Virus record (IMG/VR): IMGVR_UViG_3300042543_000295
Location: 1-37,537 of that record
Direction: 5' to 3' (one strand)
Origin: a virus
Length of the DNA stretch: 37,537 nt
Shown here: piece by piece, positions 559 through 36,507 of the stretch
Layout of the letters: every line of letters starts with the position of its first letter
How positions within the stretch are numbered: position 1 is the stretch's first letter
Notes under the pieces: model-generated
Told to the model about the DNA's origin: nothing
Databases searched by the model: none
Seen by the model: only the letters and a program-made list of their open reading frames with translations
Made by a program: the position numbers and the translations under genes

Positions 559-599
559 CCGTGGCGCAACACGGATATTATACCAGAAAGGAGACAATC

Positions 600-809
600 A
601 TGGCAAGTAAACGGCACCAACGGCGCAAAGCCTGTGAGTGGAAACGCAGTCACCCGACGCAGGCGGAAGCCGTCAGCGCGTCGCTGTCGTTGCGCAGACA
701 TACCGGTGAGCGAACCAGGGCGTATCGTTGCCCACACTGCGGATTGTGGCATCACGGCCACACGGCGCGGCGGACGAAAAGAGTGATGAGGGTGAAGAGG
801 GGGTACTAA
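600..809 (+). CDS. Small basic zinc-ribbon-like protein (69 aa)
   Basis: The start is ATG at 600, preceded by a good ribosome binding site, AAAGGAG at 588-594; the frame runs further upstream but without a comparable site. The protein is very basic, beginning MASKRHQRRKACEWKR. Residues about 41-51 read YRCPHCGLWHH, a CxxC knuckle followed by histidines that could bind zinc. Small phage proteins of the pattern basic N-terminus, helix, then Y-x-C-x-x-C-x-x-W-H are common and functionally uncharacterised; nucleic-acid binding is an inference from charge and the knuckle. It lies about 40 bases upstream of the promoter of the CRISPR module. Confidence 0.7.
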   Translation: MASKRHQRRKACEWKRSHPTQAEAVSASLSLRRHTGERTRAYRCPHCGLWHHGHTARRTKRVMRVKRGY

Positions 810-847
810 ATATCTAAAATCGGTATGAATTCCCCATATAGGGATTC

Positions 848-876
848 TTGACAACGTTTATATTTCATGGTATGAT
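848..876 (+). promoter_or_regulatory. Near-consensus sigma70-like promoter of the CRISPR module
   Basis: A perfect TTGACA -35 (848-853), 17-base spacer and TATGAT -10 (871-876) predict transcription starting near 882-884. No open frame starts just downstream. What follows is the structured RNA and then the repeat array, so this promoter most likely makes the tracrRNA-like transcript and perhaps, by read-through, the array and effector mRNA. It is one of the two best promoters in the window. Confidence 0.75.
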
Positions 877-882
877 ATTTCT

Positions 883-1072
883 CGCGTAGTAGTCACACAC
901 TGCGCGCCCCGTGCCTTGCGCGGACGATCTGCCCTGGTGCTTGCATTTGCGGCGGACGATACGCAGGGAGCCGAAAGGTCGGGGGCAATAGCTACTGTGT
1001 AGCGGCTAAATCCTGTTTTGGGGGAGTAGGGAAACCTACTCCCTGACCTTTTCGCAAACCACCCCCGTTTTT
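883..1072 (+). ncRNA. Candidate tracrRNA of the type V-like CRISPR module (about 190 nt)
   Basis: The RNA would start just after the strong promoter at 848-876. Bases 1006-1020 (CTAAATCCTGTTTTG) pair without interruption with 15 bases of the CRISPR repeat (CGAAGTAGGATTTAG): 11 Watson-Crick and 4 G-U pairs. A second segment, GTCACAC at 892-898, is the exact complement of the last seven repeat bases (GTGTGAC). Two separated anti-repeats, with the 5' one pairing next to the guide, is the layout known for Cas12b and Cas12f tracrRNAs. Other structure includes hairpin GCTAC/GTAGC (991-995/999-1003), a perfect 9-bp GAAA-loop hairpin GGGAGTAGG/CCTACTCCC (1022-1030/1035-1043), and a closing helix AAAGGTC/GACCTTT (974-980/1045-1051). 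CGGGGG (980-985) can pair with CCCCCG (1062-1067), which is followed by T5 at 1068-1072 and may end the RNA. A 9-base direct repeat GCGGACGAT occurs at 920-928 and 952-960. Exact ends are inferred. Confidence 0.75.
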
Positions 1073-1140
1073 GTGCAAAAAGTGAGTTGCGAACCGGCGA
1101 TGATGATGAGCGGAGAATCTGTCAATGGTGGCGAGAATTG

Positions 1141-1160
1141 ACCGCACAGAACCGCACAGA
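1141..1160. repeat. Perfect tandem 10-mer in the array leader
   Basis: ACCGCACAGA occurs twice back to back, 60 bases before the first CRISPR repeat. It could be a protein-binding site in the leader. A weak promoter-like pair (TTGCGA 1161-1166, 16 bases, TACATA 1183-1188) lies directly after it. No coding frame is supported in 1073-1219, and its function is unknown. Confidence 0.4.
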
Positions 1161-1219
1161 TTGCGAGATTGGGCATCGCGGATACATACGGCCCCAAAAT
1201 TTCGTCTTGCGAATGTGCG

Positions 1220-1471
1220 GTTGCAGTAAGCGAAGTAGGATTTAGATAAGTGTGACTCTAGCCGCAACCCTGGCCGCACGCCTGAATGGGTTGCAGTAAG
1301 CGAAGTAGGATTTAGATAAGTGTGACTCGGCGGGACGAGAATCAAGCCGACAAGTAGCATGGTCGCAGTACGCGAAGTAGGATTTAGATAAGTGTGACAA
1401 CTCTATCAGAGCGGCAGCGCCCACATCGTCACCACGTTACAGTACGCGAAGTAGGATTTAGATAAGTGTGA
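1220..1471 (+). CRISPR. CRISPR mini-array: four 36-37-nt repeats, three spacers
   Basis: Repeats lie at 1220-1256, 1290-1326, 1362-1398 and 1436-1471. The first two are identical over 37 bases. The third differs at two positions and the fourth at two plus a final C-to-T change. The differences fall in the first ten bases or the last one, while the segment GCGAAGTAGG...AGTGTGA is invariant in all four. Spacers are 33 nt (1257-1289), 35 nt (1327-1361) and 37 nt (1399-1435) and unlike each other. Degeneration towards the right suggests the leader is on the left, so transcription is rightward and the conserved repeat end becomes the handle 5' of the guide, as in type V. The last repeat ends 15 bases before the effector ATG. 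No adaptation genes are present. Spacer targets cannot be determined by eye. Confidence 0.92.
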
Positions 1472-1486
1472 TATATAGGTGTGTCT

Positions 1487-3001
1487 ATGCAAAAACAAGC
1501 ATTCATCACCGTGTCGTTTCGCTTGCGAACCCCGACACGGCGCAAGCAAGAATTACTCGATTTCGCCATGCAGGAATATACAAGCCAGGTGCAGCGCTTG
1601 CTCGATTGGGCGCATGAACACCTGGACAACATTCGTACTAACGGGCGCACGAGTAAAGGCGTGTACAACGCCGATAGCATCCGGCCCTGCTTGCCCACTG
1701 GTACGGAGTGGCGCGTCCCGCTATCCTCATCACTAAAAGACGGCATCTTCTCGGACGTGTGCGGCATGATTGCCAGCTACTTGGAACTGGAAAGCACTGA
1801 CTTGCTGAACAACTGGCCGACGGCGGAAACCGTTGTCACCGACGAACCCCGCGCCCGCGCCTTGTCCGCATTTGGCACGTTGGATACAGTAGGGCGCGCC
1901 GGCACGCTGCGTTCTGCCGCTGATATTGCGGAGGTTGCAGACGAGGTGGCGCTGCTGCTTGACCGTCGCCGGGAAAGTGACTTAGCCGCCGATATGCGTC
2001 GCAAAGCCTTCGTCAAGGAGCGCCCACTGACTTACACGCGTGGCCGTGACTTTGACTTACTGATTACCTCCGACCTCAAGCATCCCTATATTTATTTGCC
2101 CCTGCTGCCCAACGATGATAAGCGCGCCGGCGTTACCGACTTTGGGCAAAAGAACATGCTGACCCTGTGGAGCAATGACCCGAATGGCGTCACCCCGATC
2201 CAGGCGGGCAAGAAGCGCAACGGGCTGCTGCTGCCGTTGGAACTTGGCAAGCGTGGCGGTCAATTCCACTGGCAGTTTCGTAAGTTTCTACTCGCCATGC
2301 TTGACGGCAATGGCGTTCCCAAATCGGCAAAAGTCATCAAGCGCCGTGGTCATTATTACATCAATGTGTCGGTAGCTTTCCCCGCGCCGGCGCCCTATGA
2401 GCCGCAGGGGTACATGGGGATTACCGACAACGTGCTTTACAACTTAACCTACGCCATTGTAGGCAAAACAGGTGAGTTGATGCAAACGCACCAGAGCGAA
2501 ACAGGTATTCTCGATTTGAAGATGGACGCGCAGAAGCAGATCCGTCGCAAGCAGCAGCAGGGCAAGGCGGTCTCCTACCTAGATTATCGCACATCAGCGC
2601 AGGATGAACTTTTGCACCTGATGATCAACCAAATGCTGCAAACGGCAAAGACGCACGGCGCTGGCATTGCAATGATGGATACCAACGGCATTTACAGCAA
2701 GCGTAACGAAAAGAAGCTGAAACGCCTATGGACAAAAGCGGAGTTCATCATTGCCTACAAATGTAAGATGATGGGCATCCCATACCGCACCGGTGTGTTT
2801 CCGGCGAAAGCGATGGGTATTTGCATCCGGTGTGGCGGCGACTGCTCGCGCCAAGAAAGCAATGCTGTTTGTGCGCAATGTGGGGCGTCTGTTCCGCTGG
2901 GGATTACGAAAGCCGTCAATATTGCGCGGCGGGTGATGTATCGCAAGAGTGAATGGGAAACTAAGGGAGGCTACCGTGGATTCCACCAAAGTTTTAGATA
3001 A
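1487..3001 (+). CDS. TnpB/Cas12-like (type V) RNA-guided effector with apparently inactive RuvC domain, 504 aa
   Basis: I chose ATG 1487 because AGG (1477-1479) sits 7 bases upstream; GTG 1481 is the alternative. The C-terminal third has the TnpB/Cas12 order RuvC-I, RuvC-II, zinc ribbon, RuvC-III. RuvC-I reads GITDNVLYNLTYAIV from residue 311, against the canonical G-I-D-x-G-x-x-N-L. RuvC-II reads IAMMDTNGI from 394, against I-V-x-E-D-L. The zinc ribbon CxxC-x12-CxxC (C446, C449, C462, C465) is intact. RuvC-III reads GITKAVNIARR from 472, against D-x-N-A-A-x-N-I-A. The three acidic positions thus become T313, M397 and G472, although D314 and D398 lie next to the first two sites. Residues 1-300 would be the recognition lobe and match nothing I recognise. 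Its size lies between TnpB (about 400 aa) and most Cas12. With its own tracrRNA and array, and no TnpA, it looks like a binding-only effector such as Cas12k, Cas12m or TldR, but I cannot place it in a named subtype. Confidence 0.87.
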   Translation: MQKQAFITVSFRLRTPTRRKQELLDFAMQEYTSQVQRLLDWAHEHLDNIRTNGRTSKGVYNADSIRPCLPTGTEWRVPLSSSLKDGIFSDVCGMIASYLELESTDLLNNWPTAETVVTDEPRARALSAFGTLDTVGRAGTLRSAADIAEVADEVALLLDRRRESDLAADMRRKAFVKERPLTYTRGRDFDLLITSDLKHPYIYLPLLPNDDKRAGVTDFGQKNMLTLWSNDPNGVTPIQAGKKRNGLLLPLELGKRGGQFHWQFRKFLLAMLDGNGVPKSAKVIKRRGHYYINVSVAFPAPAPYEPQGYMGITDNVLYNLTYAIVGKTGELMQTHQSETGILDLKMDAQKQIRRKQQQGKAVSYLDYRTSAQDELLHLMINQMLQTAKTHGAGIAMMDTNGIYSKRNEKKLKRLWTKAEFIIAYKCKMMGIPYRTGVFPAKAMGICIRCGGDCSRQESNAVCAQCGASVPLGITKAVNIARRVMYRKSEWETKGGYRGFHQSFR

Positions 3002-4163
3002 TGTTTTTACTGCCAACGAACGGGAAAGCATGACGATTGTTGAAGTTGATCCCGGTGAGCTCTTCATTGATTGGACAGTCAATGAAGCGCACGTCCAGGA
3101 GATCATCAATTCTCTGCCGGCGCACAAAGGTCAAATTGTTTTCCCGCCTTATGTCTGCCTGCACAATCGCAAAATTATCGACGGTCTACATCGCGTAGTG
3201 GCCGCGCATCGGGCAGGGATTGGCAAAATTCGTATTGTCCTGGTTGACCTTGCGGAAAGCCGCTTCTGGGATCTACGGATCATGGCCGCCAAACCACATC
3301 ACAGCATTGAAAATAGCCGTCTTTATGAATGGATGGAAAAGAGTTGGGAAACCGATTGGGGACACCGCACAAACGCGAAAGAGGAAATTGCTACCCATTT
3401 GTGGCAAATGTTTCGTGGGGAAAATTACCGCCAGTCGCAAAGCCTCTATGCCAAGTTAGACCGCAGTAAGTTGGTCGGCGAACAGGCGGAACTATACGAC
3501 TGGTTTGCCGCCAAATCGGTTGTATGGAATATCCCTGTTGAATCGCTGGCCGACCGCATCCTGTCCTTCTGGAATGTCGTACCACCCAGACCGGAGCTTG
3601 ACCAACTGGCGGGTGAATATGCGCTAACACTACCGGAGCGCAATCGATTGCAGGATGAAGCGCGCCGAACACCGGCAAAGCCAACCTACGTAAAAAAGTG
3701 GGTTGATGCTGGGATGCCCGACACGCTGCTGGAATTTGCCAAAAAGGAAAAAGCGCAGAAGGTTGAGCGCAAGAAGCGGGAGCGGGCAAGAGAGGAACAG
3801 AAAGCCGCTACACCCATCGGACAAGAGCAATTGCACCGCCGCCACTTCGCCACCGTGCGTGATGCCATCAACCGCGCCGGGGAGGAAGTTGCACGCGTAG
3901 CCGCTCTTTTCCCCCAGGTGCCAGAATCAGCCGCTATGCTGGCGACACACTTGGAAAGAGTGCGCACCTATGCGCAAGATATTGTTGACGTTCAGTCCGA
4001 CGCGATTGAGAAAGTACTGGCCGACAACGCCAGGCTCTACCGAGAGAACAGCGAGTTGCGTATCAAGGTGGCGTCGCTTGAGCGCGCTAATGGGAAAAAT
4101 ACCGAAATCTCATCCAGCGTACTGGCTTGGTCATCCCTGGAAATTTCTCGACAAAAGCAGTGA
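2976..4163 (+). CDS. ParB/sulfiredoxin-fold N-terminal domain protein with coiled-coil tail (395 aa), coupled to the Cas12-like effector
   Basis: GTG 2976 is preferred because GGGAGG (2965-2970) lies 5 bases upstream; the frame extends to 2949 without such a site. The gene overlaps the effector by 26 bases, so it is probably translationally coupled. Residues about 20-95 resemble the ParB/Srx fold: a V-x-P-x-x-L start, a helix, then IIDGLHRVVAAHRAG (67-81) with the D-G-x-H-R signature. This fold binds or hydrolyses nucleotides (CTP in ParB, ATP in sulfiredoxin, nuclease activity in some phage relatives). Residues about 245-275 are very rich in K, E and R, and about 335-370 look like a second coiled coil (SDAIEKVLADNARLYRENSE). 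The middle region is unrecognised. Its place suggests a partner of the RNA-guided effector, but a phage ParB-like gene that merely shares the operon remains possible. Confidence 0.8.
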   Translation: MDSTKVLDNVFTANERESMTIVEVDPGELFIDWTVNEAHVQEIINSLPAHKGQIVFPPYVCLHNRKIIDGLHRVVAAHRAGIGKIRIVLVDLAESRFWDLRIMAAKPHHSIENSRLYEWMEKSWETDWGHRTNAKEEIATHLWQMFRGENYRQSQSLYAKLDRSKLVGEQAELYDWFAAKSVVWNIPVESLADRILSFWNVVPPRPELDQLAGEYALTLPERNRLQDEARRTPAKPTYVKKWVDAGMPDTLLEFAKKEKAQKVERKKRERAREEQKAATPIGQEQLHRRHFATVRDAINRAGEEVARVAALFPQVPESAAMLATHLERVRTYAQDIVDVQSDAIEKVLADNARLYRENSELRIKVASLERANGKNTEISSSVLAWSSLEISRQKQ

Positions 4164-4174
4164 GGAACGAACCG

Positions 4175-4204
4175 CAGCGCCAACCGGGGTAATGGTTGGC
4201 GCTG
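4175..4204 (+). terminator. Hairpin terminator between the convergent CRISPR operon and virion operon
   Basis: CAGCGCCAACC (4175-4185) and GGTTGGCGCTG (4194-4204) make a perfect 11-bp GC-rich stem with an 8-base loop, followed on the + strand by TGTCTATTTTA. It lies 12 bases after the stop of the ParB-like gene and 9 bases before the end of the leftward operon, so it may stop transcription from both sides. The U tract is better for rightward transcripts. Confidence 0.7.
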
Positions 4205-4212
4205 TGTCTATT

Positions 4213-4614
4213 TTACCCGCAACTTACCGGCGCATCCGACACCACAATCGGGCTGATCCAGGTGGTGCCACTTACGTTGTCGAGCGCAGATTCGGGGAAC
4301 CCTTCGCACTCAAACGTATCATTCAGCAATGCAGCATAGTCAGCGTTCAGCGCGTCCTTGTCGGTAATGTCGGCGTCGCTCTGGATTGTCACCGGTTCGT
4401 CGTTTTCATCACGGCGCGCGTGGACTTGCAGCAGGCGCTTTTTCTCTGCGGCCACATCTGCGATCTGAGCGTCAACGGCGTTCACAATGCGCCGGTAGAG
4501 TTTGCCCGTGTCCCGGCTCAACCGCTGGCGGCCAATTTCCTGCAATGCCGTGATTACCGGCGCCGGAAACCGAGGATCGTCGCTGTAAATGTCACTGTTC
4601 CGTAAAGTTGCCAC
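4213..4614 (-). CDS. Hypothetical protein (133 aa), last gene of the virion operon
   Basis: The start is GTG at 4614, directly abutting the stop of the preceding gene (4615-4617), with GAGGGTG upstream as a possible ribosome binding site. The protein is acidic, with a predicted helical middle (about residues 30-65, rich in K, R, D and A: QRLSRDTGKLYRRIVNAVDA) and no membrane segment or cysteine cluster. No family is recognised. Its position downstream of the fibre and protease genes suggests a tail accessory or an early-lysis gene, but nothing in the sequence decides this. Confidence 0.75.
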   Translation of the reverse strand: MATLRNSDIYSDDPRFPAPVITALQEIGRQRLSRDTGKLYRRIVNAVDAQIADVAAEKKRLLQVHARRDENDEPVTIQSDADITDKDALNADYAALLNDTFECEGFPESALDNVSGTTWISPIVVSDAPVSCG

Positions 4615-6063: not shown

Positions 6064-9000
6064 CTACGTGCTTGCCAGCAGCTTGTACGTTACCCCGTTG
6101 ATCACTACGGTTACGTAGCCCGTAGCCGTTGGTGCGCCGCCCGTATACCCGCCCAGATCCCACTGTACGCCCGCCGCTGTGCGAACTGTTCCACCTATCG
6201 CTACGTTTGCCGCGCCAAAACCGCCATTATACCCCAGCGTGATTAGCCCAGCGCCTACACGGATGAAGTCAACCCGATTATTAGAATCGTGAAAGCCAAT
6301 GGTTGTGTGATCTAGCCCGTTCAGAAGCAGAGTCGATCCTGACGTTCCCCAATTCCCGCTGGTTGGCGAGTAATTAACCCCGATGTCGCCAGCAGCAATT
6401 CCACCAGCACTGAGTGTGTATCCGTTGCCAGCAGATAGGGAGCCAGCGACAGCGACATTGCCCGACCCGTCAACGCTGAAATCGGCCGTACCGGTGCCGT
6501 TGAGCGCCAGGGCAAAGGATGTTGCAGACAACTCCATTTGGCCCGTAGTTGTCCCATTCGCCACATAGCCCACGATTCTCCCCGATGTTGAGCTACTGAT
6601 CGCCAGTTCGGTCGTCCGACCGCTTGCGGAATTGGCCCGTAATGAAATGCCCTCCGTCGCCGCTGTTCCGTTCGTTTTGATGCCAACGCCGGTACTGTTG
6701 AGGATCGAGCTATCCAGTGGGTTACTACTGTAGATGTAACCCTTCAATGTGCTGGCGTCCTGCATGATACGGAAAACACCGTCACCGACAACGCTAATGC
6801 CGCCGCTGTCCAGCACTGCATTGCCAGCGCCCGCGTACAGTTTGCCGTCCGTGTTGGCATACCATTGCAGCGTTCCGGTATTGTAGCCGCCGATGCGCCC
6901 AATGCCGCCGCTGTTCCAGATTTTCAGGCCGGTTGTCGGCGTGGCAAACGTACCGGTTCCCTGGTAGATACCACCGCTTGTGCCGATGGTCATCGCGCCA
7001 GAGAAATAGCTATTGCCGCCACCTTCGAGTATGATGGCCCCACCGTTGGCCCCAAGCGTCAGATTACCAGTGCTTGCTCGAAAGTCAAAAGTGGTCGTGG
7101 TTGGGCTGTTTGCGTCAGTACCCATCACCAAGCCGTAATCAGCAATGGATAGCCCGTTGAGATTGCCCCAGCGGCTGCGCACTTTGCGATTGCCCGCCGG
7201 GCCGGGGTGTGTTGTCCAGGTGACGATCTGGCTATAGGGCGAGTTTTCAGCGTTCAGCCCGTCCGCCGCGTTGACTTCGTAGTAGCCATTCCCCGATGTG
7301 CCGTAGTCAACAATGATGGCGTCTTTGGCGATGATACTGCCGGGAACAATGCCGCCACCCTGCGCATCATAGAACACACTGATGGTTGGCCGCAGCATGA
7401 TCAACGCGCCGATGCTGGCGAAAGAGGATGAGCTAATTGTTGCCGTCTTGGTGCCAACCGCCCCCGCCGCCGCCAACGTTTGATCCGCTACGTAGACGCG
7501 TATCCCGGTAGCGCCAGCGTCAATCAGTTCTGCCATGCCAGCCGGCGGCGTTGACGATGTGTTGTTCGACACCCCGCCCAGGAAGACAAGTTCCCCCACC
7601 GTTGAGGACGCCCAGACCGTAGACGCGCTCATGTTGGCGCCGGCGGCGTTCGCTTGGATGCTATAGCCATCAATCGGCGTGTAGGCCGTATCCACGTTGT
7701 AATAAGCGACAACCGCCGCCGCCAGCGCGTGGCTATTCGCTGTGCTGAACGTGTACGATGCGCCCTCCGATCCACCCGCCACTTTATAATAAATGGCGCC
7801 GTTGATGTCTGTTCCCGTTGCCGATCCCAACAGCGTCCAGCCTGTTGCCGTGATTGTATCGGCGCTGCCGTCGTGCGTAACCACTGCCACCAACACATCA
7901 CCGCTAACAACGCCGGTTGGCCTACTTGGGGCAACACTGGCGCCTGCTGCCGTGGTGGCGCTGGTCGCCGTACCACGTTGCGTAATCGCATTGTAGGTCG
8001 ATGTGCCACTGCGGTTGAACGTCCAGGTTTGCGTGCCATCGGCGTTGTCGGTTGGACTGGTGACAGTTCCCCAGGCGTAGCCAATTAGCAACTCACCCGA
8101 CGCACGGGCAAACGAACGCAACGCAATGTGGTCGCCAGAGACGAACACTTGCATCCCCGGCGCTGATGGCAGATCCCTGACCGTGATGCGCTGTTGTCCC
8201 CCGAAGTACGGTGTACGGAAGTCGGACGCCAGCAGGGTGACGCTCTTGGCAATAATCTGGCCGCCGGCAAGCGCTTGCTCCAAGTCGGCAATGAACGCCT
8301 TTGCGTGCATTTCGTCGGTGTAGATGTAGCGGAAATCGGCAGCCCCAGCCCCGGTAACGCGCCAGCCCGTCAATTGGCTGGCATAATTGTTGCTGCCGAT
8401 GTTGCCGCCATACAGCCGCGTGTGGCCGCTGCCATCCACGTCGATAAGAACGTTTGCCGGTCTAAAGAATCGCAACAGCCCCGCGCTATTGTCGATCTGC
8501 CACTGGTTTGTTCCGTCATCCAAATTGATGCGCGGCGTACCACCGGCTATCCCCAACCGCACGTTGGCGACGCCGCGGCTTACCTCCGTCAAGGCGCCTT
8601 GCACTTGCAAACCTTCGGGAGTAATGGTGCCAACGCCTAGCGCCGTCGTTGTGAATGTGGCAATTGTTGTGCCGCCTGGCGCAATGGACAGGTTGCCGCT
8701 GGCCGTATCGATTAGCGGTGTTGTTACCTTTGTAGATGCCGCCACCGTCACCGCCGTTGCCGCACCCGCGCTGGTGATGTTCCACGATGTGCTAGATAGT
8801 GTGCCGGTCAGTGACAGAGCGCCCGTCACCGCCGTTGTTCCACCCGCCGGGGCGATGGTTAAATTGCCGCTAGCTGTGTTGATGGTTGGCACAGTCAGCG
8901 CGCTGGCAACCGTGACCCCGCCGCTGCTGAACGTGGCCCGCTGTGCGCCACCGGTCGTCACCGCCAACGTATCCGCTGCTGACCAGTATAGCCCTGTGTT

Positions 9001-12000
9001 GGTGTCACTCAGCGCCGCGATGCTAGGGAGCGATGCCGACCCGGCCCCGACCAGCACGTCGCCCGTCACCTCCGCGTCACCGATGATCTGCACGGTGCCG
9101 CCAAAATAGCTGGGGGTTGATCCGGCGCTATAAAACGCATAGCTATTGGTTGCTCCCGATAACGCGGCGCAATAGTAGCCATATTGGTTGGTTAGCGTTG
9201 CCCCGCCCAAACTGGCGTTCAGCGCGTGAAACATCGACAGCGACGTAATGGCGCCGGTGTATCCCGCTTGGCTCAACAGTTGCCCTTGAGCCAAGCGGAC
9301 ATTGGTTACGTTGAATGCGCTGTTGTCGAGCCGTAGGTTATTGTTGATGTTGATAAAGGTGGTGATAGCCCCCTGCGGCTCTTCGGTTGGAACCCAGCGC
9401 ATCGCCTGCATTGTCGCGCCGGCGGCGTGGCGCAAAATGGCCGAGGTATTGAACAAAAACCCGGCGCTGGCGTAGGTGCCTTCGAGTGTCATGCCGCCCG
9501 TTTGGCCGGTTGCCGGTTGTGCTGTCACCACATACCCGGTGATCGGCGCGCCGTTGATGCTGATTTGACCGCTGGCGTTGACACGAAGCCGCTCTGTCCC
9601 AACGGTTGCAATACTCAGGCTATCCACCGCCTGTCGGTAAATGCCGGTGCTATCACTGGCTGAAAACGAAAACGCTGGCACTAGCGCCGTGCCGTTGCCA
9701 GTGCGCACGCCATTGGTAAATGTCTGCGCCTGGCTGGTCGCTCCCGTAGTCGCACCGCTTGCCAGCAGGTAATTACTCAGCGTGGCCGTCTGTACATACC
9801 TGGCGTCTGATTCGGCCTCTGTAAAATAGCGGTCATCGTGCGTGTGGCCGCTCAAACTCACCGCCGTCCCACCGACGGTCGGCGTCTGCCCGAAGTCAAC
9901 GATACGCGTGGTGTTATCCGCCTGAAAAACGATATGCGTCGTTGTGCCATCATAATAGGTCAGCAGCATATCATTCTGCTGTGCTGCCGTTGCAAAATCA
10001 TGAGCGCGCCCGATTAGATCCCATGCCTTACCGGTGCTGGTTTGCGTCAACCACCGCACATAGTTGGATGTACCGGCGCTGTCGGCGTCTAGCGTGAGCG
10101 CCCCCGTCCAGGTCGTGGGAATGCGGGCAAAGTCCAACGTGCCACTGGTAATGTCGCTGGCGGCGTGACTATGGCTGTAGGATGGCGTGCCAACGATGGT
10201 GCCGACGTGCAGATTGACGGCGTAGATGTCCTGCCAGCGGGCGCCCGATGCGCCTAGATCGTGAGTGTTATCGGCGTTAGGGGTAATGGCGCGGCTGGTC
10301 AGCGTGCCGGTGAGCGTGCCACCGGATAACGGTAGAGCTTGACCGGCCAGAGTGACCGCCGTCCCATTAACAGTAAGCGCGCCTATAATGTTGGCATCAC
10401 GCTGCACGGTGAGGTCATGCGTAATATTGACGCGCTGCGCCGTGCTACTCTTGATGACTTCCAACCCTACCGGCGTTGAGTTTGGATCAATAAGCAGGTT
10501 GAGGTAACGACTACCCGTTACAGTCAACGTCGAAAGCACTGCGTCAATGGTCGAGAAGACACTTGCATTACGAAAAGTGATGGCGCTAGTGGTCGCCCAA
10601 GTGGCAGTGGCGTTCATGCGCAACCAAAGCCCCGAATTATCCATACCCACCGCCCCGGCCCCGGCGTACAGTCTGCCGTCCGTGGCGTCGGCGTACCATT
10701 GCTCAACGCCACCGCCAACGCCCTGTAGTTTGTTGCTGGCGGCTACCCACTGGATATAGTTATTACTGGCGTTACCGGCTAGGCGCATATTGCCCGACGA
10801 ATCCATGTAGGTTTTCCACCCCGCCGCTGTACCGCTGCCGGTGTGGTAGCCCATGTAATCGCTACCCAGGTACAAACCCGCCGTGCCTGGATTGCCGATG
10901 GCCGTCGCCGGGATCACTGACGTTACCAGGTTATTGCCGCTACTCAGTGCGGTAAAGGCCCGCCCCGCGCCCGTCACCTGACTTGGTGTGGTGCGATGAA
11001 AGCTTGTGCCATTCGGCACATTGTCAATTGTGGCGGTGATGTTGCTGAAGTCGGTTTTGGCGGCATTGCCACCGGTGACGGTGATCGAGCCGTAGACCGT
11101 CACCGTGCCGGGATAGCTGGCGTTACCGATGGTGACAGCGCCGGTTGCACCGTTGAACTCAAAGCCGGTTGTGCTGCTGCTGGCAATGTTCGTGCCGAGC
11201 TTGACACTGCCGTTGGTGGCGCTAATGTCCACAGTTTGCAGCGTCGAATTGTACATTTTGAATGACGCACCACGGATTTGCAGACCGTTGTCGTCGGCCA
11301 GAATAAAGCGGCTTTCGTCATTGGTTGAGCGCGCATACAACCCGAAGCCCGCCGGTGTAACGTAGGCGTTGCCGGTGCTGCCCAAATGCCCAAGCTGGAC
11401 ATAGGTTATGAAGTTGGCCGGGGTGTATGGGTTTGCGCCGCTCCACTTGCGCATTTTAATGTAGGGCGCGCCCGCCGCGTCAATCACCGACAAATGAATG
11501 AGCGCAGCACCGCTTGCACCAAAGTCAATAGCCAAACTGCCTCTTGTGATCTCGGTAGCGGTTGGGCCGCTACGTAGCGTAAATGTCCAGTTCTGCGTGC
11601 CGTCGCTGTTATTGACGTAGGTCGCCACCTGGCCCCACACGTTAAACAGGTTGATGCCAGTGTCAATCTCTAATTTGCGGATTAATACCCAATCATTATT
11701 GACGAAAATCGCACCGGCTAACGCTGGACTATCCTCAAATTTCACTGACACCGTGCCACCGATAGCGCTGGGCGTGGTGAAGGATGCGGCCACAATGCCG
11801 TAACTTTTCGTCCAAAATTCATCCCCCCTATCGACGCGCACCTCGTCAGCCACGAATACACGAACGGCCAGTTCATCAGCCTGAATCTTGCCGATGGTCA
11901 AGGCGCTGTAGCCAGCGACGCCCGCCACCTCGTTGATTTGCCAGCCGTTAATGGGGAATGAGCTATCAAAGGATGTGGTGCGCAGCGTCTGGTCATTCGG

Positions 12001-26670: not shown

Positions 26671-28688
26671 TATTTGGCCTCCTTTTTCGGAAAGACGGGC
26701 GGCATCGCCATCGTGGTGTAGCGCGGTTCCTCAGTGGCGTTGGTCGCCACATTGCCGCTACCGACGTAAAGACGGGTCGCAAAGGCGCTTGTCAACTTGC
26801 GCAGGGTTTCCACCGGCATGGCTTTCAGTTCAGCCTCACTGAGTGTGTTGCGTTCGTTGGCGACTAAGCCAGCAACCAGATCGGCGCGCTCCTTGTCGGC
26901 GTTGGCAACCACACCGGATAGAGCCGCCGTCAACTTGTCAATGCCGCCGAATTGCTCGACAACCTTCGCTAGTTGTGCCAGTTCAGCCGGCACAACCTCT
27001 TTGACCACTTCCACCGGCGCTGGCTCGACGGCGGGTGATTCCTCATTGACAACTGGCTGCAATGAACTGGCGAACGCGGTCAGCGTTGCGTCGTCCATCG
27101 CCTCCAATTGTTGCTTGCTGCATTTGCATTGCGCATTGGCTGCAAGCCCTTCAATAATCTTGGTTCGATCCACTTTTTTACCTCCAAGTGAATTGATAAC
27201 ATTGCGCACCAATGCGCTAAGAAAAGATTGACTGGCGTTCTCTGCGGCTTTGGCTTCGTTGATGCGAGGAACCCCGCACCCATCCGCCCAGCTACACGCG
27301 CCGGTTTCGTTTAAGAGAATTGCGATATGATCGGGCCGCAGGTTGCGCGCAATGCCAGTGTAGGCTTTGCCGTCATGCGTACCTGGTTGATCAACCAAGT
27401 CGCGGAAGTAGCCCGTACTTACGTCGATGGCTTCGTTGTTGCGCAGGCGCTGCAATAGCTGTGTCGCCTGTCCGCCAAGCTTTTCGGCTTTAGTAATGTC
27501 AACCCAAAATTCACCTTTGAGCGCGTCGCCGTCGATATGAGCGTCCCAAAACATGGCCGGGGTTTCATCCCACAGATCCATGCTGTTGGCGCTGATCGCT
27601 TGCCCGTCCTGCTTCGGGTGGCCCAACGGCACAGGGCGCCCGTTCCAGGCGTCGGCGTATTTTGCCACCTCGTCAGCCGGCACAAACTCACCATTTAGCA
27701 CGCCAGAGCGAAGGGCCACCGTCGGCGCTACCAGATAACGCGTGCCTTTGCGCGTGACCTCCTTGACTGTCCCCGCCGTGGCGTTGGTGGTCAACTGCAC
27801 GGTGTTGCACCCACAATCCTCAGCGGCATTGGCGCGTATGTAGCCATCACCAGTCAGCGGAAAATCAACCTGTCTGGTGGCGACCGACACGCTGATAGAA
27901 CCAAATTCAAGCGGCATAGTGGGGATCATGCTGATAGGCGATTCGGCCCCCGGCTCAACCTCACTGAGTGTCATGTGTGGCGTAAATCCGTGGTTCATCG
28001 ACACTGGCACGTCGCTGTAGCGCAGGCGCTGCACAACCGCCTCACGCAGTCGTTCAAGTCCAGGCACATCAACCACGGCGTAAATCACATCCTTGCCATC
28101 GGAAAATTGGCTTGCATTAAAGCGGCCCATGCCATTAATCGCGCCGGCCAACTTTCCGAAGTCGCGCGCAATCTGTTGCGCTGCCACGATGGCGTTTGCC
28201 AGTTGTGCATCGGTCAAGGCATCCACTTTGCCGAGATAGGCCAGGGTAACGTGCAATGCGTCGGCGCTCATCTGTACACCAGGCATGGCCGCAATTTGTT
28301 GCGCCAATTCGGTGGACGGGAAAAGCGCCACCATTGCGCCGTTAAACTGCGCGCCCTCTGGCACGGTAAACAGGGTGGCGTTGTTGGCGGGTTGTACTTC
28401 GTTGTCTTGTTCGTTCACGGTTGCACCCTCATCGGTTCGCTGCCAATCGAGACACGCCCAGAAACCAGGCGCTAACGGGTCTTTCTTCGTGCTACAGCTA
28501 TGGCGCTCCAAAAATGCCTTGCGTCGGTCGGGATCGTCTCGCTTCATTTCCATGTCAGGATCGCCGTAGTGGACGAGGTAATCTTTGCCATCCTTCGTGA
28601 CAGTCCGCATATACTTTTTGTCGTCACGGGTTGAGGTTCTTCGCCCCGTCGCTGTGACTGTCACCCCGTTGTAGGTATAGCTCGGCAT
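26670..28688 (-). CDS. Fusion of 2H phosphoesterase-like domain, DUF2213 prohead protease and scaffold-like tail (672 aa)
   Basis: Residues 43-82 carry a C/D-rich motif seen in other phage head proteins (DDPDRRKAFLERHSCSTKKD). Residues about 105-280 form a 2H phosphoesterase-like domain: two H-x-T-L motifs, HVTLAYLG at 146 and HMTLSE at 238, with the usual spacing of about 90. Residues about 310-480 match DUF2213, a phage head maturation protease group: GHPKQDG with H357, IDVSTGYF with S424, and RPDHIAIL with H454 as candidate catalytic residues. The last 180 residues are acidic, helical and proline-linked, fitting a scaffold. The start is ATG 28688; the internal terminator 18 bases upstream is notable. 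The 2H domain could process RNA ends or cyclic nucleotides, as in Acb1 anti-CBASS proteins, but this is inference. Confidence 0.8.
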   Translation of the reverse strand: MPSYTYNGVTVTATGRRTSTRDDKKYMRTVTKDGKDYLVHYGDPDMEMKRDDPDRRKAFLERHSCSTKKDPLAPGFWACLDWQRTDEGATVNEQDNEVQPANNATLFTVPEGAQFNGAMVALFPSTELAQQIAAMPGVQMSADALHVTLAYLGKVDALTDAQLANAIVAAQQIARDFGKLAGAINGMGRFNASQFSDGKDVIYAVVDVPGLERLREAVVQRLRYSDVPVSMNHGFTPHMTLSEVEPGAESPISMIPTMPLEFGSISVSVATRQVDFPLTGDGYIRANAAEDCGCNTVQLTTNATAGTVKEVTRKGTRYLVAPTVALRSGVLNGEFVPADEVAKYADAWNGRPVPLGHPKQDGQAISANSMDLWDETPAMFWDAHIDGDALKGEFWVDITKAEKLGGQATQLLQRLRNNEAIDVSTGYFRDLVDQPGTHDGKAYTGIARNLRPDHIAILLNETGACSWADGCGVPRINEAKAAENASQSFLSALVRNVINSLGGKKVDRTKIIEGLAANAQCKCSKQQLEAMDDATLTAFASSLQPVVNEESPAVEPAPVEVVKEVVPAELAQLAKVVEQFGGIDKLTAALSGVVANADKERADLVAGLVANERNTLSEAELKAMPVETLRKLTSAFATRLYVGSGNVATNATEEPRYTTMAMPPVFPKKEAK

Positions 28689-33484: not shown

Positions 33485-33691
33485 ATGCAAGTTCGTAAAT
33501 CAATCAAGTTATCCGCCGACCTTTGGCGAAAGCTTGAAGCCATCGCCGCCGATGTCCAGGCCATTGCGCCACCTGGACAGGGAACCGGACAGCCGTCTTG
33601 GCGCTCACTGTTTAGCGAGATTGCAAAAGGCAATCTTATTGTTACACGAAAGGAACAAACTCATGACCAATCTCAAGACTCGAACCTATGA
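33485..33691 (+). CDS. Small protein, possibly ribbon-helix-helix-like (68 aa)
   Basis: GGAGG lies 7 bases upstream of ATG 33485. The N-terminus, MQVRKSIKLSADLWRKLEAI, has the strand-helix look of ribbon-helix-helix regulators (R-x-S-I-K-L-x-x-x-L-x-x-x-L), followed by a glycine/proline loop and a helix (SWRSLFSEIAKGNLIV). It is the first gene after a strong promoter and overlaps the radical SAM gene by 29 bases. An autoregulatory role is a reasonable guess only. Confidence 0.75.
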   Translation: MQVRKSIKLSADLWRKLEAIAADVQAIAPPGQGTGQPSWRSLFSEIAKGNLIVTRKEQTHDQSQDSNL

Positions 33692-35477
33692 ACTCGAAGA
33701 CAACGGTTGGAGCGTCAAAGGTTGCTCCATTGTCTACGCTCCTCGCGGTCAAGCTGGCGAATATGCCAAGCTTGCGACGAACCCTTACCGCGGATGCGGC
33801 CATGCCTGCGCTTATTGCCTCACGGGTGACACCATCATCCAGATGGCGGATGGCTCTACCAAGCAGCTTCGTGACATCGAAGTTGGCGATGCCGTCATCG
33901 GCGTTACCCTCAGTGACAGCAAGCGATCCTGGGGAACACGCATTACCGCCACTACAGTTTTGGCGAAAATTGCCACCCGCAAAGCCGCTTACAAAATCAC
34001 GTTGGCGGATGGCACTACGGCTGTTTGCTCTGCCGATCACCGCTGGCTTACCGAACGTGGTTGGAAATACACCGCTGATGATGGCAGTCACCGCCCACGC
34101 TTGACAACTAACAACTCGATTCGCAAGCTCGGAACTGCGACGCTTACCCCACTTGAGAGCGATGCGAATTTGGCGATTTATGATTACTCGCACAAACGCC
34201 GCCCGTCGGGGAAGACAGCGGGCGTTCAACATCGTTTTCGTTTGGCTCTCAAGGACACTTGCGCCTTGCATCGTACAAAATCCTATCTTACTCAGCATGG
34301 TATTGAAACAACTGACTTTGCTTTCCCTAGCGACGGTGAACCTATGCTTGCTATCGGCACCACTAGCCCCACGCGCTTTTCTGCAATCAAGGCAATGACT
34401 ACGCCGCAAGACGATCCAGAATGGCAGCGTGGTTGGTTGGCTGGCATCTTTGATGCAGAAGGAAGCCACGGCGTACAAGCTTTGCGAATTGCGAACTCTG
34501 ATACAGCCATCCTTGAGACTACCGAAAAAGCACTCTCCTTGTTCGGTTTTGACTATGTTCGCGAAGTCCCACCAAGTCGAGATGTTTGTTACATCCGCGT
34601 TCGTGGTGGCCGTCCCGAACATCTTAGATTCTGGCAACTGCTCAATCCTGCCATCAAGCGCAAGTTTGCCATTACTGGTCAAGCCATCAACGAAAGCGTC
34701 AAGATTGTCAGCGTTGAACCACTGAACGAAACTATGGATATGTTCGACATCATGACCGGCACTGAAAACTTTATCGCAAACGGCATGATCAGCCACAATT
34801 GTTATGTTCCGAAGGTTCTAAAAATGGATCGCCCGACCTTCGACGCTGGCGCATTCCCTCGTACTGACTTTCTTGATGCCTTACGCAAGGACGCCCGCAA
34901 GTATCAGGCGCTTGGCATTGCCGAACAGGTTATGCTCAGTTTTACCACCGACCCCTATCACCCCGGCGACAACTCGCTTACCCGTGACGTGTTGACCACG
35001 TTGCAGAGCTACGGACTTGGCGTCTGTACGCTGACAAAGGGTGGCAGTCGGTCGATTCGTGACATTGACATCTTTCGCCCTGACCGCGACGCCTTTGCCA
35101 GCACCTTGACCACACTTGACGACGATTTTAGCCGCAAGTGGGAGCGGGGCGCCCAACTTCCCGGCGACCGCATTGCGACACTCAAGGCGTTTCATGACGC
35201 CGGGATATTCACGTGGGTCAGCCTGGAGCCGACGCTGAATACCGAATCGTCGCTTGCCATCATCGAACACACGCACGAGTTTGTTGACCTGTACAAAATC
35301 GGGCGGGCTAACTACCTGCCCATGACCAACACAACCGATTGGGAAAGCTACACCTGCCGCACTCTGGAACTGGTCAACCGACTTGGCGTCAAGCATTACA
35401 TTAAAAAGGATCTTCAGCCCTTTTTACCCGCTGGTTACTACAACCCGAAATATATCAACCAGCATCATGGGGCATAA
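33663..35477 (+). CDS. Spore photoproduct lyase-like radical SAM protein interrupted by an intein (604 aa precursor, 276 aa spliced)
   Basis: ATG 33663 follows AAAGGA at good spacing. The N-extein reads KLATNPYRGCGHACAY and the C-extein CYVPKVLKMDRPTF; joined they give GCGHACAYCYVP, the CxxxCxxC cluster motif of radical SAM enzymes of the SPL-like type. C45 and C49 are in the N-extein, and the third cysteine is the +1 residue after the intein (residue 380). The rest fits a TIM-barrel: VMLSFTTDPYHPGDN, YGLGVCTLTKGG, FTWVSLEPTLN and VDLYKIGRANYL. Such phage proteins may repair or modify DNA or tRNA, but the substrate is not evident. The last 23 bases overlap the end of the convergent gene. Confidence 0.9.
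   Translation: MTNLKTRTYELEDNGWSVKGCSIVYAPRGQAGEYAKLATNPYRGCGHACAYCLTGDTIIQMADGSTKQLRDIEVGDAVIGVTLSDSKRSWGTRITATTVLAKIATRKAAYKITLADGTTAVCSADHRWLTERGWKYTADDGSHRPRLTTNNSIRKLGTATLTPLESDANLAIYDYSHKRRPSGKTAGVQHRFRLALKDTCALHRTKSYLTQHGIETTDFAFPSDGEPMLAIGTTSPTRFSAIKAMTTPQDDPEWQRGWLAGIFDAEGSHGVQALRIANSDTAILETTEKALSLFGFDYVREVPPSRDVCYIRVRGGRPEHLRFWQLLNPAIKRKFAITGQAINESVKIVSVEPLNETMDMFDIMTGTENFIANGMISHNCYVPKVLKMDRPTFDAGAFPRTDFLDALRKDARKYQALGIAEQVMLSFTTDPYHPGDNSLTRDVLTTLQSYGLGVCTLTKGGSRSIRDIDIFRPDRDAFASTLTTLDDDFSRKWERGAQLPGDRIATLKAFHDAGIFTWVSLEPTLNTESSLAIIEHTHEFVDLYKIGRANYLPMTNTTDWESYTCRTLELVNRLGVKHYIKKDLQPFLPAGYYNPKYINQHHGA
33816..34799 (+). mobile_element. LAGLIDADG intein (328 aa, in-frame) in the radical SAM gene
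   Basis: The element starts with Cys (residue 52) in CLTGDTIIQMADGSTKQL, the standard splicing block A, and has block B at AVCSADHRWLTERGW. The homing endonuclease core is visible at WLAGIFDAEGSHG. The end NFIANGMISHN followed by Cys is block F/G with the terminal His-Asn and a +1 Cys. All residues needed for splicing appear present. The insertion site is the third cysteine of the iron-sulfur motif, so only spliced protein can be active. Confidence 0.95.
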
Positions 35478-36507
35478 TTGACCACGTTTGAAATAGGACA
35501 TTCCCTTCTCTGCCACGGTAGCTGGATAAAGCCGTGGCAGAGAAACCTGAAAGCGCTGCCACCTTTTGCATAAAATCAGTCACCGTTTGCTCAAGCGCAT
35601 CGTAATCACTTCTAGTCAACTGCCGCATTGATTCGCCATCAACCATATACATTTCGGCAAGGTTGCCCTTGCCGCGAAACTTCATGTTCATTCCGTTCCC
35701 ATCGGTTAGCGATAGAACGAATGGCGTACTCTTTTTCCCTGCAATGGCATGAAAAAACATCTGAATTTCACGACCTGGACAACCTTCGTCATCAAAATCT
35801 ACGTAGTCAAAATCTAAATGTTCATTCAGGTGTTTCTCAATAAAATCACTGGCACTCATAGAGTAATCTACGTCACCATGCTGATAAGCCTTGTCAACTG
35901 TGATTACCGTGGAAAAGCGACGGCGATACCAGGCTGCCAACTGACCTGCGCCACTAAACAAGTCTAGAGCCTTATGCCCGTGCGCTTTCCATGCGGCCTC
36001 AATACGATACGCCAGCTTAAAAGGCTCAACATCATGACCATCGCCAGCATTGTACAATCTACCAGATCGTGATATTTTATCGTTCGCTTCGGTATCATCT
36101 TCGCCAAAGTCAAAATCACCCTCATCGAAACCCCACGTTAGGAGATCGCCCATGTCCCAATCGGCAAGCGCTGCCATGTCGAACTCACCGGTTGCACCGC
36201 GATGTAGATACACCGTCAACTGCTGGCGTTCCCGCTCCGTCAATTCCCGGCTGGCAACCCGCACGTCAACTTCGTAATCCATGCCGTATTGACCGGCAAG
36301 CACACTGAGCCGCTGATGCCCATTATACAGCGCATTCCCCGGCCCAATCGCCAGCGTCTCCACTTGCCCGAACGTTTCCACGCTATCGACCAGCCGCTCG
36401 GCTTGCTTCTGTTTGATCGTGCGCGGGTTATGTTCCCACGGGATCAGGTCGGCCAGCTTGCGGCGCTCATTTGTCCAGGTGATGCTTTGTGTTTTCTTCT
36501 TCGCCAC
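35455..36507 (-). CDS. ParB-like N-terminal domain fused to a Rossmann methyltransferase-like domain (350 aa)
   Basis: GTG 36507 has GAGAGGG just upstream. Residues about 15-100 are ParB/Srx-like: LIPWEHNPRTIKQKQAERLV, then ALYNGHQRLSVLAGQ with the N-G-H-Q-R signature (62-66). In other phages this domain precedes adenine methyltransferases. Here the second half has a SAM-binding-like LDLFSGAGQLAAWY (181-194), TVITVDKA as the acidic loop and FDYVDFDDEGCPGREI (233-248) at the motif IV position. That last motif is neither DPPY (adenine) nor PCQ (cytosine-5), and resembles the D-x-D-x-x-G-x-P of RNA methylases such as Trm1. Substrate is therefore open. It could modify phage or host DNA or RNA. 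Confidence 0.8.
   Translation of the reverse strand: MAKKKTQSITWTNERRKLADLIPWEHNPRTIKQKQAERLVDSVETFGQVETLAIGPGNALYNGHQRLSVLAGQYGMDYEVDVRVASRELTERERQQLTVYLHRGATGEFDMAALADWDMGDLLTWGFDEGDFDFGEDDTEANDKISRSGRLYNAGDGHDVEPFKLAYRIEAAWKAHGHKALDLFSGAGQLAAWYRRRFSTVITVDKAYQHGDVDYSMSASDFIEKHLNEHLDFDYVDFDDEGCPGREIQMFFHAIAGKKSTPFVLSLTDGNGMNMKFRGKGNLAEMYMVDGESMRQLTRSDYDALEQTVTDFMQKVAALSGFSATALSSYRGREGNVLFQTWSIMPHDAG
35506..35544. repeat. Perfect 13-bp inverted repeat near the ends of two convergent genes
   Basis: TTCTCTGCCACGG (35506-35518) and CCGTGGCAGAGAA (35532-35544) form a 13-bp stem with a 13-base loop, 28 bases past the radical SAM stop and inside the last part of the opposite coding region. There is no T tract. 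It could end the rightward transcript or be a protein-binding palindrome. Confidence 0.6.

Follow-up and report, generated by a model that had tools for sequence, protein, structure and literature searches.

Introduction

Cas12m, the effector of subtype V-M among the clustered regularly interspaced short palindromic repeats (CRISPR) systems, needs a CRISPR RNA (crRNA) only. It is guided by an array, occurs on mobile elements and binds without cutting (PMC10442227, PMC11656645); for Cas12m2, silencing by such binding is described (PMC10442227). According to the 2025 classification, RuvC was lost on multiple occasions in type V, with non-cutting interference reported for V-C and V-M and predicted for V-O and V-P (PMC12669027). 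According to a landfill survey, some type V proteins linked to phages have RuvC motifs that are weak or absent, and those highlighted there come without spacer acquisition machinery (PMC12607003). TIGR-TasA systems, located mostly on mobile elements including phages, have a nuclease-lacking RNA-guided effector, and their loci are described as 'occasionally operonized' with a ParB-like gene, TasParB (PMC12045711). Here we analyse a module of a putative trans-activating CRISPR RNA (tracrRNA), a CRISPR array, a nuclease-dead Cas12-like effector and a probable ParB/Srx-like protein. It lies at positions 848-4206, near the left end of the IMG/VR virus record IMGVR_UViG_3300042543_000295, whose 37,537 bases were analysed as a whole and are called the window. 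Our favoured reading, with a probability of roughly 0.6, is that the phage encodes a type V CRISPR module which depends on a tracrRNA, binds DNA but does not cut it, and has a ParB-like partner.

Given the repeated loss of RuvC in type V and the landfill proteins, an array-linked phage Cas12 with a dead nuclease site does not represent a new kind of system. For the pairing of a Cas12 with a ParB-like gene, TIGR-TasA appears by analogy to be the closest parallel. TasA, however, has a Nop domain and works with dual spacers and 10-nt repeats, whereas the present locus has a Cas12-like protein, 37-nt repeats and a predicted tracrRNA; no Nop family appeared in a Pfam scan up to an E-value (E) of 1. 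Subtype V-M resembles the module in its array guidance, its mobile setting and its binding without cutting, which is a prediction here. It differs from the module, for which a tracrRNA is predicted, in which T, M and G stand where Cas12m2 has H, D and D, and in which a second gene overlaps that of the effector; no significant Cas12m match is listed. A Cas12 with a ParB-like partner was not found in searches of the open-licence PMC literature, a scope outside which subscription papers, preprints and supplements lie and which gives no proof of novelty.

The effector and its relatives

In the catalytic columns of RuvC, both phage copies of the effector (the second is from contig G001, see below) have T313, M397 and G472, where 6/6 other aligned relatives have D, E and D. 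The absence of the RuvC acids claimed in the preliminary description of this DNA was thereby borne out. The zinc ribbon is intact (C446, C449, C462, C465). We predict that RuvC cleavage by the effector is absent.

Profile and fold matches agree with the TnpB/Cas12 type assigned earlier to the 504 amino acids. NCBIfam guided_TnpB matches at E 1e-10, with 41 bits against a cut-off of 100. The PADLOC Cas12f match (E 6.5e-7) is confined to residues 280-396; another, at 6.6e-6, spans 266-482. NCBIfam Cas12f2 reaches 31 bits against a cut-off of 450, and the Pfam TNB domain stays below the Pfam cut-off. Cas12u1 gave no PADLOC row up to E 10, with filters that drop weak matches, and UnCas12m4a only E 1.3. 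By the profiles searched the effector is close to no named subtype, which supports the preliminary description, in which the combination of features matched no subtype that could be named.

The structure model of the effector is of low confidence, with a mean predicted local distance difference test (pLDDT) of 47; its RuvC/TNB part alone is fair. In Foldseek with this model, all 40 matches at E ≤ 0.001 were titled Cas12, TnpB, Fanzor or TranC. The top match was CnCas12f1 (E 1e-8), and Cas12m2 was a weak fold match (E 2e-4). VIA-align to AsCas12f gave Z 16.8 for residues 12-489, at a root-mean-square deviation of 16.2 over 257 residues, so the domain arrangement of the model is not reliable. 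The RuvC part alone fitted better (168 residues at 3.9 Å to Al3Cas12f, Z 14.4). The fold of this low-confidence model appears nearest to Cas12f. An array beside a single effector of predicted Cas12 fold (RuvC and TNB) is the arrangement of Class 2 type V.

The nearest relatives are proteins of 483-488 amino acids with about 24-28% identity from Pseudoalteromonas phage J2-1, a P. spongiae plasmid and a Flavobacteriaceae metagenome-assembled genome (MAG). In hhalign, the effector aligned with its relatives at a probability of 99 over 346 columns. All three match PADLOC Cas12u3 over almost their full length. They keep the RuvC D, E and D, as seen by alignment in the J2-1 and P. spongiae proteins and by eye in the MAG protein. 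Two of the three, those of the plasmid and the MAG, adjoin arrays. On the P. spongiae plasmid (NZ_CP023400.1), eight CRISPR-like repeats with a period of 60 nt (L019 3028-3484) lie directly upstream of the effector, which is annotated as TnpB. On the MAG contig (L107), the Cas12u3-like protein is encoded at 2300-3751 and a three-repeat array follows about 350 nt downstream (4097-4247); a second TnpB-like open reading frame (ORF) is located at 294-1403. Phage J2-1 has an unannotated, RuvC-intact Cas12u3-like ORF for 483 amino acids (L105 4611-6062). No repeat family was found there by search, and one repeat-like copy was seen by eye at about 6300-6340, 3' of the ORF. ORF and repeat copy might together represent a single-guide CRISPR effector of this phage. 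Anti-repeat tests on the RuvC-intact relatives gave helices of 8-11 bp only, which were not taken as proof of a tracrRNA.

Ranked by similarity, as distinct from placed in a tree, the effector seems to be a dead branch of V-F/V-U3-like proteins that are linked to CRISPR arrays, rather than a descendant of a bare transposon gene. With V-F and V-U3 (Cas12f, Cas12u3) it shares the compact size and the TNB zinc ribbon; its best fold match is a Cas12f and its relatives match Cas12u3. A tracrRNA with repeat:anti-repeat pairing, as in V-F, is indicated by sequence. The relatives keep D, E and D, in contrast, and the intact triad of V-F is missing from the window effector. The annotation next to the P. 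spongiae effector includes no ParB-like gene.

Cas12k was among the fold matches, and V-K has a dead RuvC and a tracrRNA. Unlike V-K CRISPR-associated transposons, neither record had a TniQ match at E 10, in a search in which no control genome passed the family cut-off and which did not include TnsB and TnsC. Profiles of tyrosine integrase and Y1_Tnp (TnpA) likewise had no match in either record. The lack of Y1_Tnp (0/2 records) differs from an IS200/IS605 TnpB element, but alone is insufficient to rule one out. Many TnpB elements are without TnpA.

A second copy of the module and its conservation

The module was sought in viral metagenome records, as proposed earlier. IMG/VR searches with the effector, the repeat and the ParB-like protein gave one further module-bearing contig only, G001 (62,597 bases). 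The larger aligned blocks of the two are 86-96% identical. Between the copies, 8/504 residues of the effector and 13/390 compared residues of the second protein differ. The ratios of nonsynonymous to synonymous substitution rates (dN/dS) are 0.079 and 0.099, and neither protein has stops. This is strong evidence in the sequences for purifying selection on both proteins.

More distant relatives were few. An alignment query in IMG/VR gave two additional ones at 23-25% identity. In species genomes, the effector sequence alone gave none and an alignment query two at 22-24%, one being the MAG protein. The effector was absent from 41/41 TerL-related records examined (41 of 80 loci), a little informative set with many short terL fragments.

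A former Cas12f-like nuclease that is being lost would also explain the three missing catalytic acids and, in the window, an array of three spacers with degenerate distal repeats. Selection data argue strongly against such a decaying relic. With dN/dS of 0.08-0.10, no stops, a putative tracrRNA identical in both phages and an array of 11 spacers in G001, we regard it as extremely improbable.

Arrays and spacers

The four repeats and three spacers of the preliminary description were found in the window, with spacers of 33, 35 and 37 nt. The array of G001 has 12 repeats and 11 spacers (26777-27621, coordinates turned to the strand of the array). No spacer is common to the two phages (0/14), and outside the arrays the best match of any of the 14 spacers to either phage spans no more than 17 nt, with one mismatch. 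In G001, the 11 repeats other than the terminal one, which was treated as a separate class, fall into four variants in unbroken blocks, AABBBBBCCDD (random-order probability 0.0006). Such blocks are the pattern left by repeat duplication at the leader end, where the spacers were presumably acquired. The different spacer sets and the blockwise variants point to the spacer turnover of a Class 2 type V system. Cas1 and Cas2 had no profile match in the window or G001 at E 10, so adaptation proteins would have to be provided in trans or be encoded in parts missing from these possibly incomplete records.

These spacers argue for variable foreign targets, since none is common to both phages and none matches either phage. 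Host genes, which the preliminary description had offered as targets beside those of competitors, look less likely, because 0/14 spacers are common although the larger aligned blocks are 86-96% identical.

The same evidence bears on a possible regulator of a fixed host gene, in which the dead effector would repress one host promoter and so aid the phage. TldR is such a case, a RuvC-dead relative of TnpB that is prophage-borne in some clades. It uses a single guide cassette and is not known to have a CRISPR array; four repeats were found in the window and twelve in G001. In its loss of RuvC and its phage residence the module resembles TldR (PMC13418256). The TldR proteins studied there use a guide RNA cassette against flagellin genes, whereas here a CRISPR array has changing spacers. 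Fixed targets should keep one guide, but the two close phages have no spacer in common and the array reaches 11 spacers. A tyrosine integrase was not found (serine integrases were not searched). We consider a TldR-like role rather improbable.

The putative tracrRNA

Positions 884-1075 are identical in the window and G001 (192/192), while the flanks are less conserved: 188/210 positions in the small ORF before it and 133/144 in the leader after it. This identity is the strongest support for a tracrRNA. It is strong but not conclusive, as a recent local exchange of DNA could also produce it. Further evidence comes from pairing with the repeat. The 15-bp helix of anti-repeat 1 was reached in 0/1000 dinucleotide shuffles of the region and is the longest of its kind on the plus strand of the window. 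Its 15 pairs, Watson-Crick or G-U, are kept by 7/7 distinct repeats of both phages. No terminator was listed at the end of the putative tracrRNA by the terminator scan, and Rfam and ARAGORN scans gave no matches.

Alternatively, the dead Cas12 and its tracrRNA might withdraw crRNAs from a type V system of the host that uses the same repeat. Sequestration of host crRNAs has been proposed for a RuvC-dead phage Cas9 together with a phage-encoded tracrRNA (PMC11656645). The phage Cas9 is described without an array (PMC10910872), but the present module comes with one, and its spacers change. Two genome scans, which did not extend to a search of host arrays for the repeat, found no close effector. 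We hold this anti-CRISPR mimicry to be improbable as well.

The second gene

The second gene probably encodes a ParB/Srx-like protein, judging from profile matches. It holds the motif KIIDGLHRVVAAHRAG, at what we take to be the place of the ParB/Srx signature. PHROG 8071 ('ParB-like') matches its residues 36-102 at E 0.003. A hidden Markov model (HMM) of other phage ParB_N proteins, built without the second protein, scored the copy from G001 at E 0.007 and the one from the window at 0.013; in a partly redundant set of 7,517 frames of at least 80 amino acids, only the true members ranked above them. The C-terminal part is predicted to be helical in a low-confidence model. The ParB-like protein gave nothing in INPHARED, nor did its N-terminal part in PLSDB and INPHARED, at the limits used.

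Phage ParB-fold proteins are described as often fused to methyltransferases and as binding various nucleoside triphosphates (PMC12704722). G001 encodes an N6/N4 DNA methyltransferase that carries a fused ParB_N domain (9917-11620, array-strand coordinates). A second, better supported ParB-like protein of the window (350 amino acids, 35455-36507, minus strand) was recognised by an in-house phage ParB_N HMM; Pfam listed nothing for it.

The overlap of the ParB-like gene with the effector gene would also suit RNA-guided partition or genome marking, in which the effector would place the ParB-like protein on DNA of the phage or of a plasmid, so that this DNA is tethered or segregated. TIGR-TasA loci likewise carry ParB-like genes (PMC12045711). 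Self-partition should keep self-matching guides, and no spacer matches either phage, in records that are possibly incomplete and in which ParA was not searched. This explanation is very unlikely.

Locus layout

The predicted promoter, the tracrRNA-like stretch, the array, the effector gene and the overlapping second gene form a one-directional unit in phage DNA (Table 1), with the virion genes for TerL (large terminase), portal and capsid downstream in the window, much as first described. The consensus-like promoter is kept in G001 with a single change, located in its spacer, and the terminator-like stem is the strongest of 6 such sites. Both scans gave about as many sites as shuffled sequence. 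The promoter scan of 560-4300 found 2 such sites where 2.8 were expected, which makes the promoter weak on its own, and 4.4 terminator-like sites were expected. AGGGAGG precedes the GTG start of the second gene.

Table 1. Features of the module in window coordinates.
Feature	Positions	Strand	Details
Sigma-70-type promoter	848-876	+	TTGACA 848-853, 17-nt spacer, TATGAT 871-876; 11/12 consensus matches
Putative tracrRNA	884-1075	+	Ends inferred from the −10 box (start about 7 nt past it) and a T5 run (end)
Anti-repeat 2	892-898	+	7/7 Watson-Crick with repeat nt 31-37 (spacer-proximal end); in a predicted 8-nt hairpin loop
Anti-repeat 1	1006-1020	+	Helix search: pairs with repeat nt 12-26, 15 bp, ungapped, G-U allowed
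Leader region	1076-1219	+	From putative tracrRNA to array
CRISPR array	1220-1472	+	Repeat search: four 37-nt repeats (1220-1256, 1290-1326, 1362-1398, 1436-1472), three spacers
Nuclease-dead Cas12-like effector	1487-3001	+	ATG to stop, 504 amino acids; begins 14 nt past the last repeat
Probable ParB/Srx-like protein	2976-4163	+	GTG to stop, 395 amino acids; overlaps the effector end by 26 nt
Intrinsic-terminator-like stem	4173-4206	+	Terminator scan: 14 pairs; closes the unit

Elsewhere in the window (33534-35477, plus strand), a Radical-SAM protein is interrupted by an intein that has a LAGLIDADG homing domain (Pfam Intein_splicing, LAGLIDADG_3, Radical_SAM). From the look of its sliding clamp, the virus may be a Chloroflexota phage.

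Weighing the evidence

Several observations weigh against a tracrRNA-dependent module with a ParB-like partner. The module is known from two records only. The folding energy of the tracrRNA region is not significant over 190 nt (z −1.36; −2.08 over 336 nt): of the structured RNA with two repeat-complementary segments described at first, both segments were found (15 bp and 7 bp), but its stability is unexceptional. The coupling of the second gene, likewise claimed before, is seen in the overlap of 26 nt, whereas its ParB label, at E 0.003-0.013 only and with no match to Pfam ParB_N, is weak but reproducible. The structure model of the second protein was unusable (pLDDT 41) and was discarded. 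The effector has D314 and D398 directly beside lost acids, but an active site in a shifted position is improbable, because no acid occurs within five residues of G472.

No protospacer was found in any search run. The 14 spacers against 131 partly redundant loci gave at best E 0.026 over 15 nt, and reversed spacers as a control 0.093 over 14 nt. Five of the 14 against INPHARED reached E 0.5 at best, which is chance level, and an exact search in IMG/VR with the first 20 nt of three spacers had no matches. From these spacer searches no protospacer-adjacent motif (PAM) was derivable.

Proposed mechanism and significance

As inferred from known type V systems, the tracrRNA would pair with the repeats through the 15-bp helix and the 7-bp loop contact, and host RNase III would mature the guides. 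The dead Cas12 could then bind guide-matched DNA beside a PAM, in other phages, plasmids or host defence islands. There it may block transcription or replication, by analogy with Cas12m. In the most speculative step, the coupled ParB-like protein would be recruited to the effector or its target and strengthen or extend the block. Adaptation proteins acting in trans would insert new spacers next to the leader. Spacer turnover favours changing foreign targets and disfavours both a fixed host gene and self-partition.

An RNA-guided loader of ParB can also be imagined, though we think it unlikely. The R-loop of the dead Cas12 would replace a fixed parS, and the ParB-like protein would close onto guide-chosen DNA and spread, silencing or immobilising an extended region of a rival genome. 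If true, it would be, with TIGR-TasA and TasParB, a second unrelated case of guide-programmed loading of a sliding clamp, an interference mode distinct from cutting and from point roadblocks. A programmable silencer covering kilobases would be a possible use.

Under the favoured reading of a non-cutting type V module, two arrays with all spacers different beside an identical putative tracrRNA would be a natural case of spacer turnover without cas1/cas2 in both records. TasA and this Cas12, though unrelated, would both be RNA-guided effectors that lack a nuclease, belong to mobile elements and share an operon with a ParB-like gene. Such a convergence, if real, may point to a common way of acting on DNA without cutting it.

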